A stretch of DNA of 64,000 nt from Cyanobium sp. CZS25K (lineage in GTDB: Bacteria; Cyanobacteriota; Cyanobacteriia; PCC-6307; Cyanobiaceae): assembly GCA_030373325.1 (NCBI GenBank), contig JAUCZB010000007.1:1-64000 (forward strand), in the 5' to 3' direction. Below, in pieces: positions 41,598 to 44,441 of this stretch (within the stretch, counting starts at the first letter, position 1; every line of letters begins with the position of its first letter). Both the position numbers and the translations under genes were made by a program. Below the pieces are notes generated by a model. That model did not search any database and was not told where the DNA came from. It worked only from the letters and a program-made list of their open reading frames with translations.

Positions 41598-41716
41598 CGC
41601 TCCGAGCCAGGAAAACTGACGCTAGCAACGATGTCCGGAGCCAGCCCCTGCCCGCAGGCGCCCGACGGGTGGGGCGACGCTGCCAGAGTGGGCGCCGTTC
41701 CGTGTCGCCGCCGCCC

Positions 41717-42298
41717 ATGGCCCCGTCGGGCAGTTCCCCCCCCTCCACCCTCGGCCGCACCGAGCGCATGGTGCTGGCGGCCGTGGCGGCCGTGCTGGTG
41801 GTGCTGATGGCGTGGCTGCGGGGCGGCCTGCATCCGGAAGCGCCCCTGGAGCGCCTGGCCCGCCAGTCGCCCGAGTTCACGGTGGCCCTGGCCGACGGGC
41901 GGCCCACCCTGGTGGAGTTCTACGCCGACTGGTGCGAGGCCTGCCGGACCATGGCGCCGGCGATGGAGCGGATCGAGCGCCAGCAGCGGGGCCGGATGGA
42001 TGTGGTGCTGCTCAATGTCGACAACCCCCGCTGGCAGCCGGAGCTGGAGCGCTACGACGTCAACGGCATCCCCCAGCTGGAGTTCTTCGACGCCGCCGGC
42101 GGCTCCGTGGGCCGCTCGATCGGCGCCCGCAGCGGTGCCGAACTGGAGGCCCTCACCGCCGCCCTGGTCGACGGCACGCCCCTGCCCCAGCTGGCGGGCG
42201 TGGGGGCCGTGAGCAGCCTGCCGGAAGCGGCCGGGCCGGAGGGCGGCGCTCCCGCGGCCGCCCTGCCCACCCAGGCCGGCCCCCGCAGCCACGGCTGA
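41717..42298 (+). CDS. txlA: Membrane-anchored thioredoxin-like protein, TxlA type
   Basis: The 193-residue protein has an N-terminal membrane anchor (about 17-35) and a thioredoxin-like domain with active site WCEAC and VNGIPQLEFFD (cis-Pro). A Pro/Ala/Gly-rich tail ends it. TxlA in cyanobacteria is a thiol-disulfide factor that influences photosynthetic electron transport. The start at 41717 was chosen at the anchor; an upstream Met gives an Arg-rich leader. It lies 52 bases before thyX. Confidence 0.85.
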   Translation: MAPSGSSPPSTLGRTERMVLAAVAAVLVVLMAWLRGGLHPEAPLERLARQSPEFTVALADGRPTLVEFYADWCEACRTMAPAMERIERQQRGRMDVVLLNVDNPRWQPELERYDVNGIPQLEFFDAAGGSVGRSIGARSGAELEALTAALVDGTPLPQLAGVGAVSSLPEAAGPEGGAPAAALPTQAGPRSHG

Positions 42299-42350: not shown

Positions 42351-44441
42351 ATGGATCCCCGCTTCCGGGTCGAGCTGATCGCCGCCACGCCGAACCCGCA
42401 GCTGTGCGTCTACGCCGGGATGCACCAGGACTACAGCGAGGGCTTCGTGGCCGCCGACCGGGCCGACTGGCCCGACGAGCGCAAGGCCGGGGAGATCTGC
42501 GTCAAGCGGCTGCTGGCCGGCGAGCGCGGCCACTACGGCCCCCTGGAGCACGCCCAGATCGTGCTCAACGTGGGCTGGTTCCCCCACTCGGTCATGCAGC
42601 AGGCCCGCACCCACCGGGTGGGGGTGAGCTTCGATGTGCAATGCCTCGCCGGGGACACCGAGATCACCTTCCTGCAGGCCGGAGGGAGCCTGCGGAAGAT
42701 CAAGATCGCTGAACTGCACGATCTCTGGACTAACGGAGAACGAGCGATCCGACACCGGCAGATCGGTGACCGTCAAGGCGAAGCCCCCGGAACATACCGA
42801 CACGATTGCCGCAAGCGGCTGCAGAAGATGCGGTTGCGGGTGCTGAACGAAGACACGAACGTCTTTGAAACGAGCCATCTCACAGATGTGATCTGCAGTG
42901 GGCTGCAACCGGTCTATCGGCTGACCATGGAGGACGGCCGCACACTCGACTGCACCGCCAACCATCGTTTGCTCACGCCGGATGGTTGGCAGACCATGGG
43001 AGACGCCCTGTCCCTGAGGGTGCACAGGGATGGCTCCGTGCGTAGCTTCCGGCGCACGGCACAGGTGCTGGCGAACGGAAACGTGGCGGTGGGCAGCGGG
43101 TCCTACCGCGACAGACACTGGCTGCAGCAACAGGTCGATGCCGGGGCAACCCCGGGCGAGATGGCGGAACGGGCAGGCTGCTCGATCACCACGATCCGGG
43201 ACTGGGCCCGTCGGCATCAGATCCGCTTGGCGGAGAGCAACAGGCGCTTTCAGGCGGGAAACAAGCCCTGGAACCACAACCCTTCAGCTCTTTATCGTCA
43301 GCAACAATGGCTGCAGCAACGGCTTGAGGACGGGCTCAATGCCGACGAGATGGCTGAACTTGCTGGCTGCTCCGTTGAAGCCATCAAGAAGTGGGTCTAT
43401 CACTTCGGACTGACTCTCAATCGACGCCCATTCGGCTTCCAGGCGGGCATGCGGCCCTGGAACAAAGCGCGAAGTGGTTACCGCCTGCAGCTGTCGGAAG
43501 CGTCGCGCGAGGCGTGGCGCGCCCATGGTCGGCGGATCACCCGTCGAGGCTCAGCGTCACACTTCTGGAAAGGAGGCACATCGTCTGAGCGCGTGTTGAT
43601 CGGTGCCTGGACTCGGCAGATCGCTCCCCAGGTTCATCAACGTTTCGATCACACCTGCCAGCGTTGTGGATTGCGAGGAAGCGCGCAACAACTGCATGCC
43701 CACCACTTGGTCCCCGTCTATGCGGATCCAAGCCTGGGCTACGAGATCGAGAATCTCGTCAAACTTTGTCAACCCTGTCACGCCTTCATTCACAAACACC
43801 ACCAGGAGGCCGACTTTGCCGCGGCGTTCCGTCTGCTGAAGCCGAGCCATACCTGGCCCGAGATGCCCCGCCCCCGGGGTCGGAGGCTGATGGCCCATCC
43901 GCTCACCGTGGCCCGGGTGGAGTTTCTGGGCTCTCGGATGACCTACGACCTTGAGGTGGCCAATCCATGGCACAACTTCGTGGCCAATGGCATCGTGGTT
44001 CACAACTCCATGCGCTACACGGGCGATCGCATCCGCCGGGCCGCCAATGGTGAACTGGAGTTGGAGGAAGTGTTCTACCTGCGCCCGGTGGGCCCCTACA
44101 GCGACCGCCAGGGCAAGAAGTACCTCTACGACGAGGGGCAGCGGGGCATTGATCTGGAACTCTGCCGGGTGGCGGCTGAACGCTACCGAGACCTGCTCGA
44201 TGCCGGCTACGCCGAGGAGCACGCCCGCGGCATCCTGCCGTTCGACTACCGCCAGCACTTCGTGGTGAGCTTCACCCTGCGGGCGTTCCTGCACTTCCTC
44301 GACCTGCGGGCCAAGCTCGATGCTCAGCAGGAGATCCGCGAGCTGTGCGATCTGATGTGGCCCCACCTGCAGCAGTGGGTGCCCCAGTTCGCTGATTGGT
44401 ACGAAAAGAGCCGGCTGCACCGGGCGCGGCTGGCGCCCTGA
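42351..44441 (+). CDS. thyX: Flavin-dependent thymidylate synthase with intein
   Basis: The 696-residue precursor is ThyX interrupted by an intein. The N-extein (1-97) contains the ThyX signature region RTHRVGVSFDVQ. The C-extein resumes as SMRYTGDRIRR, so the two join to make the conserved ThyX motif exactly. After splicing the enzyme is about 241 residues, normal for ThyX, which makes dTMP from dUMP using FAD and NADPH. The intein insertion sits inside the active-site motif, so unspliced protein should be inactive. The gene follows txlA; dcd, which supplies dUTP, lies beyond the accessory island. Confidence 0.95.
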   Translation: MDPRFRVELIAATPNPQLCVYAGMHQDYSEGFVAADRADWPDERKAGEICVKRLLAGERGHYGPLEHAQIVLNVGWFPHSVMQQARTHRVGVSFDVQCLAGDTEITFLQAGGSLRKIKIAELHDLWTNGERAIRHRQIGDRQGEAPGTYRHDCRKRLQKMRLRVLNEDTNVFETSHLTDVICSGLQPVYRLTMEDGRTLDCTANHRLLTPDGWQTMGDALSLRVHRDGSVRSFRRTAQVLANGNVAVGSGSYRDRHWLQQQVDAGATPGEMAERAGCSITTIRDWARRHQIRLAESNRRFQAGNKPWNHNPSALYRQQQWLQQRLEDGLNADEMAELAGCSVEAIKKWVYHFGLTLNRRPFGFQAGMRPWNKARSGYRLQLSEASREAWRAHGRRITRRGSASHFWKGGTSSERVLIGAWTRQIAPQVHQRFDHTCQRCGLRGSAQQLHAHHLVPVYADPSLGYEIENLVKLCQPCHAFIHKHHQEADFAAAFRLLKPSHTWPEMPRPRGRRLMAHPLTVARVEFLGSRMTYDLEVANPWHNFVANGIVVHNSMRYTGDRIRRAANGELELEEVFYLRPVGPYSDRQGKKYLYDEGQRGIDLELCRVAAERYRDLLDAGYAEEHARGILPFDYRQHFVVSFTLRAFLHFLDLRAKLDAQQEIRELCDLMWPHLQQWVPQFADWYEKSRLHRARLAP
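42642..44006 (+). mobile_element. ThyX intein with HNH homing endonuclease
   Basis: This 455-residue intein starts with Cys (CLAGDTEITF, block A) and ends VVHN before the +1 Ser of the C-extein. A block-B-like region (DGRTLDCTANHRLLTPDGW) has the TxxH pattern, and block F/G features are seen in YDLEVANPWHNFVANGIVVHN. Between them is an HNH endonuclease, with two zinc-type Cys pairs (HTCQRCGLR and VKLCQPCHAFIH) flanking LHAHHLVPVYA. Before it lie two similar helix-turn-helix-like units (SYRDRHWLQQQVDAG and YRQQQWLQQRLEDGLN types) that probably help bind DNA. All splicing residues are present, so it looks active. Confidence 0.92.

Follow-up and report, generated by a model that had tools for sequence, protein, structure and literature searches.

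The intein in ThyX of Trichodesmium erythraeum (Ter ThyX) splices in model fusions in its natural form as well as in mini- and split forms (PMC3620165), and ThyX inteins have also been listed in mycobacteriophages (PMC5050341). For the intein in the dCTP deaminase of cyanophage CL131, self-excision has been shown (PMC6293099). We analysed the thyX gene of Cyanobium sp. CZS25K in a stretch of 64,000 nt (contig JAUCZB010000007.1, positions 1 to 64,000), referred to as the window. We regard it as very probable that its insert is a homing intein at a fixed ThyX site, which splices itself out, spreads and decays, and for which no regulatory role is needed.

The thyX gene (42,351–44,441, + strand) encodes flavin-dependent thymidylate synthase with an in-frame intein, starts with ATG and specifies a precursor of 696 aa. 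Residues 98–552 of the translation represent the insert, i.e. an intein of 455 aa delimited by profiles and alignment (42,642–44,006, + strand; CLAGDTEITF...GIVVHN, then SMRY), which begins with Cys1, ends with His-Asn and is followed by a +1 Ser. Its excision yields a ThyX of 241 aa. The N-extein comprises 97 aa ending with RTHRVGVSFDVQ (42,351–42,641, + strand). The first residue of the C-extein (44,007–44,441, + strand), i.e. the +1 Ser of the intein, corresponds in the alignment to the second, conserved Ser of the ThyX motif (the Ser of SMR), and the insertion point, site 'b', lies directly ahead of it. Joining the exteins raises the NCBIfam thyX score from 162.6 to 186.5 bits. All coordinates and structural features given in the initial annotation were confirmed; it had described a complete 455-residue intein within the ThyX signature and had proposed comparisons with intein profiles and with other cyanobacterial thyX genes.

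The splicing profiles of Pfam and NCBIfam matched the intein above their cut-offs, i.e. Intein_splicing (PF14890) with 38.2–39.8 bits (cut-off 35.8), TIGR01445 with 27.3 (cut-off 24.5), and TIGR01443 with 27.6 (cut-off 15.6). The first two define the N-terminal splicing domain with blocks A and B, including the TANH motif (42,642–43,091, + strand), and TIGR01443 together with the alignment defines the C-terminal splicing domain with blocks F and G, ending with WHNFVANGIVVHN (43,881–44,006, + strand). All 31 distinct inteins of the alignment share Cys1, His454-Asn455, and Ser+1. In a fold of the full intein, pLDDT values are mostly 75–95 for the N-terminal splicing domain, weaker at residues 30–60, and about 90 or more for the last 35 residues; this fold did not resolve the nuclease, and the endonuclease part was modelled better alone with 25 sequences. 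No second copy of the intein was found in the genome. We classify the insert as a full-length class-1 homing intein, i.e. a standard type rather than a new device. GC3 is 73% for the intein versus 91% for the ThyX extein, with the lowest value, 69%, in the part containing the helix-turn-helix (HTH) units and the HNH nuclease; the low GC3 of the intein is consistent with a foreign origin.

The core of the HNH nuclease (43,644–43,796, + strand; intein residues 335–385), with the pattern CxxC, HH, N, CxxCH, H, was delimited by PF01844, the alignment and a model. PF01844 matched residues 339–381 with 30–31 bits (cut-off 21.4), and both Cys pairs, C339/C342 and C376/C379, are present, in line with the earlier description of an HNH endonuclease with two Cys pairs. 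H354, H355, N371, H380, H384, C339, C342, and C376 are invariant in 14 full-length inteins. With 25 sequences, AlphaFold2 modelled the HNH part as beta-beta-alpha with pLDDT values of about 80–90. The structural neighbours are HNH nucleases (McrA with Z 6.8, Gme HNH with 6.2, and GVE2 HNH) and common HTH proteins, with moderate Z values that are not decisive alone, and a Foldseek search with the endonuclease arm against the PDB retrieved nothing under E 0.001. The endonuclease region has a dN/dS of about 0.2 against the nearest relatives and is under purifying constraint.

Two HTH units precede the nuclease core. Unit A (43,104–43,274, + strand; intein residues 155–211) has three helices and a basic/PWN tail, and unit B (43,293–43,463, + strand; residues 218–274) is a repeat of unit A. 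They were delimited by matches to the MerR and HTH_28 profiles, respectively, and by AlphaFold2 models; the profile matches cover residues 170–194 and 221–252, with scores that are near and mostly just under the Pfam cut-offs. The spacing of the units is 189 nt (63 codons), and they are 44% identical over 57 aa and 74–79% identical at the DNA level in two stretches, confirming the earlier statement that two similar HTH-like units lie about 60 codons apart. The repeat is far beyond chance, with an alignment score of 136 versus a mean of 22 and a maximum of 42 in 2000 shuffles. AlphaFold2 with 25 sequences predicted three helices for each unit (pLDDT about 90); in the model of the endonuclease arm the units are confident and their mutual arrangement is unreliable (pTM 0.36). 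The structural similarity of unit A to HTH proteins reaches a Z of 6.7. Recognition of the target site by the doubled unit is plausible.

A single branch (95/94; 99% of the bootstrap trees) separates the A units from the B units. Because this split holds even when the viral copy described below is included, the doubling is ancient, i.e. ancestral within this intein family. The special status at which the initial annotation had hinted for the duplicated unit is thus not upheld, and tandem HTH-HNH proteins also exist elsewhere. In this family, the FQAG.xPWN tail of unit B (43,435–43,463) resembles that of unit A (43,246–43,274) and is missing from unit B of distant relatives; the shared tails suggest a partial conversion between the units.

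Among other cyanobacterial thyX genes, the same site is either empty or filled with an intein. A thyX match was found in 38 of the 42 genomes of the genus, five of which bear an intein while 33 have an uninterrupted ThyX. Uninterrupted loci of the genus uniformly read RTHRVGVSFDVQ directly followed by SMRYTG, with a gap of 0 (30 of 30). ThyA was found in none of the 42 genomes, including that of the window, the assembly of which is 88.5% complete, and no second ThyX or ThyA that could serve as a bypass was found in the latter. Because the intein interrupts the active-site motif and ThyA is absent from the 42 genomes, ThyX of this strain should depend on splicing, as had been proposed from the sequence of the window. 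The locus L037 stems from a record named Microcystis elabens FACHB-917, and its thyX groups within the Cyanobium-like genus of the window, away from Microcystis, so that the organism name looks misleading. A gene for a thioredoxin-domain protein (41,669–42,298) immediately precedes thyX on the same strand, and it lies beside thyX in nearly all members of the genus with or without the intein. A functional tie of this gene to the intein was considered and rejected, since its location next to thyX is independent of the intein.

Across cyanobacteria, 39 loci with 31 distinct inteins share the insertion site together with Cys1 and the HN-Ser ends, and the lengths of these inteins range from 167 to 456 aa. 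Forms with two HTH units have 444–456 aa, those that have partly or wholly lost one HTH unit have 420, 401, 384, and 353 aa, and mini-inteins have 242 to 167 aa. In the compact form L010 the tail of unit A abuts unit B; because this tail remains, we interpret L010 as a deletion of unit A. L011 is a fusion of A and B, L052 keeps unit A but is missing one HNH His as well as the first half of B, L037 lacks one Cys, and the single HTH unit of L017 and L018 groups with unit B. According to the Goddard-Burt cycle, homing inteins are expected to pass through decay stages, and the shortened or mutated forms at this site correspond to these expected stages.

In a thyX tree of 12 intein-bearing and 30 empty rows, the presence of the intein requires eight changes, at least five of which are forced by the starred branches. 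The exteins favour a grouping of L036 with L038, and this pairing is strongly rejected by the intein data (lnL difference 236, p-AU 0.004). For L003 and L037, the exteins are 93.6% and the inteins 84.7% identical, with a marginal AU test (p 0.042). The other AU tests on the extein side were weak or not significant, and the extein trees, being short, offer weak resolution. No sign of co-conversion was seen in the flanking thyX DNA, as intein-bearing strains were not unusually similar to each other around the site (173 of 500 label shuffles were as high). Sporadic presence and discordance between intein and host ThyX, the two hallmarks of a homing element, were both found, as expected for invasion and loss.

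Viral contigs, all metagenomic, were scanned for carriers; a query with a single sequence found nothing, and an alignment-based query retrieved them. The viral locus L089 contains an intein at the identical ThyX site, which has two HTH units and HNH and is 47% identical to that of the window. Its branch lengths are 2.6 for ThyX versus 0.33 for the intein, and the contig (G728) also encodes head and replication proteins. Because a highly divergent ThyX carries a closely related intein, the intein has moved between phage-type and cyanobacterial thyX, in a direction that we infer. Two further viral contigs (L091 and L092) contain a mini-intein-bearing ThyX that is close in the tree to a cyanobacterial one. 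Named phage genomes yielded no close full-length relative, the best full-span matches being about 29–32% identical, and among plasmids the sole matches were weak ones to HNH or HTH-HNH in those of haloarchaea. On the contig of L089, a ribonucleotide reductase (L102, 674–5035) appears from its translation to hold three inteins, so that two enzymes of the dNTP pathway of one phage, ThyX and ribonucleotide reductase, appear to be intein-bearing.

Inteins also occur at other points of the ThyX motif. In a cyanobacterial genome (G131), locus L023 (1501–2421) contains an intein five residues upstream of the site of the window (RTHRVGM^SFDVQ). This intein combines an HNH_3 nuclease with a NUMOD4 motif, and its splicing domain is related to that of the window (33% identity). 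The mycobacteriophage inteins L084–L086 are also inserted five residues upstream. The upstream site is likewise used in L090 (3001–4260, on a viral contig of 212 kb), which has an extra HTH-like segment within the N-terminal splicing domain (residues about 48–81) and another one in the endonuclease part, and the HTH-HNH part of which is 40% identical to that of the window. In a virus of Methanomassiliicoccales (L088, 1102–1842), the intein occupies a third point between the other two (RHRLASY^SQQSQRY). With three or more insertion points, the active-site motif of ThyX is a hotspot for inteins. A tentative proposal, which we regard as unlikely, is that a single lineage of ThyX inteins moves back and forth between phages and cyanobacteria and now occupies two sites five residues apart, the target site being set by an HTH array of none to two units, to which L090 adds the HTH in its splicing domain. 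If this were true, changes in the number of HTH units would track changes of the target.

The preferred reading combines two levels. Judging from conservation, the HINT domain would excise itself from the protein via Cys1, the block-B His, the terminal Asn, and Ser+1, resulting in the ThyX of 241 aa. At the DNA level, HNH, guided by the two trihelical HTH units, would cleave thyX genes lacking the intein within a stretch that spans the conserved motif, and repair of the cut gene would copy the intein in. Comparison of the loci shows that the element spreads from one cyanobacterial species to another, as well as between thyX genes of phage type and those of cyanobacteria, and that it later decays as HTH units are lost, HNH is mutated and mini-inteins arise. 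Such a selfish element would persist because clean loss from an essential active site is rare.

The initial annotation had also suggested that dTMP supply might become sensitive to redox or stress. The intein would then be a post-translational switch, with ThyX splicing tuned by redox, metals or DNA damage. ThyX is apparently the sole thymidylate synthase and is interrupted in its active-site motif, full-length forms show complete or nearly complete conservation of Cys1, Cys85, and Cys104, and conditional splicing has been published for other inteins, e.g. mycobacterial DnaB (PMC6195587). However, 33 of the 38 thyX-bearing genomes of the genus manage without the intein, the junctions contain no extein Cys, the +1 residue is Ser, and the neighbouring thioredoxin-like gene is also present where the intein is absent. 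In addition, the Ter ThyX mini-intein splices to about 100% in E. coli (PMC3620165). No feature of sequence or context was found to speak for a switch, which we consider very improbable.

Within the homing reading, the state of the nuclease arm has to be weighed. Several same-site relatives are degenerate, and the divergence of the inteins of the genus implies that the last transfer was not very recent, which would be compatible with an inactive HNH-HTH part and an intein that, in this strain, is by now inherited only vertically. We think this somewhat unlikely, since in the copy of the window both HTH units are intact and no HNH or Cys residue is missing, and its endonuclease is under purifying constraint against the nearest relatives. 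A similarly low probability is assigned to the possibility that DNA is read by unit B alone, unit A being vestigial or serving as a spacer. Across relatives, conservation is higher for unit B (mean identity of 61% versus 51% for unit A), L010 retains B alone, and the single unit of L017 and L018 groups with B; L052, which retains A, lacks half of B together with an HNH His. In contrast, the helix pattern of unit A is kept in all full-length forms and over a long divergence that includes the viral copy.

At one site in one cyanobacterial family, there are alleles that are empty, full, degenerate or reduced to a mini-intein, and viral carriers exist as well, so that both the homing cycle and the spread of inteins by phages can be tested directly. 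ThyX inteins also have practical uses, as the Ter ThyX mini-intein splices nearly quantitatively, and the family offers natural mini-inteins of 167–242 aa.

Ter ThyX, identified by name, resembles the intein of the window in being a cyanobacterial ThyX intein. The mycobacteriophage inteins of Colt, Norm, and StAugustine share the ThyX host, HNH, Cys1, and the HN-Ser ends at about 30% identity, but they lie five residues upstream (before SYNEES) and have about 253–257 aa, and the one that was scanned had no HTH profile match, unlike that of the window. The CL131 intein is also an HNH intein in an enzyme of the dTMP pathway carried by a cyanobacterial virus, but it differs in host protein and in its HNH_3-type nuclease. 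A literature search for tandem-HTH HNH homing nucleases turned up no specific precedent. Tandem HTH units followed by HNH occur in the haloviral proteins HCTV-5 gp111 (two units) and HJTV-4 ORF23 (four units), which are, however, free-standing genes without an intein and about 25% identical. In comparison with these systems, the intein of the window is best described as an ordinary member of a family present at one site in many cyanobacteria and some phages, with a doubled HTH that is real and not unique.
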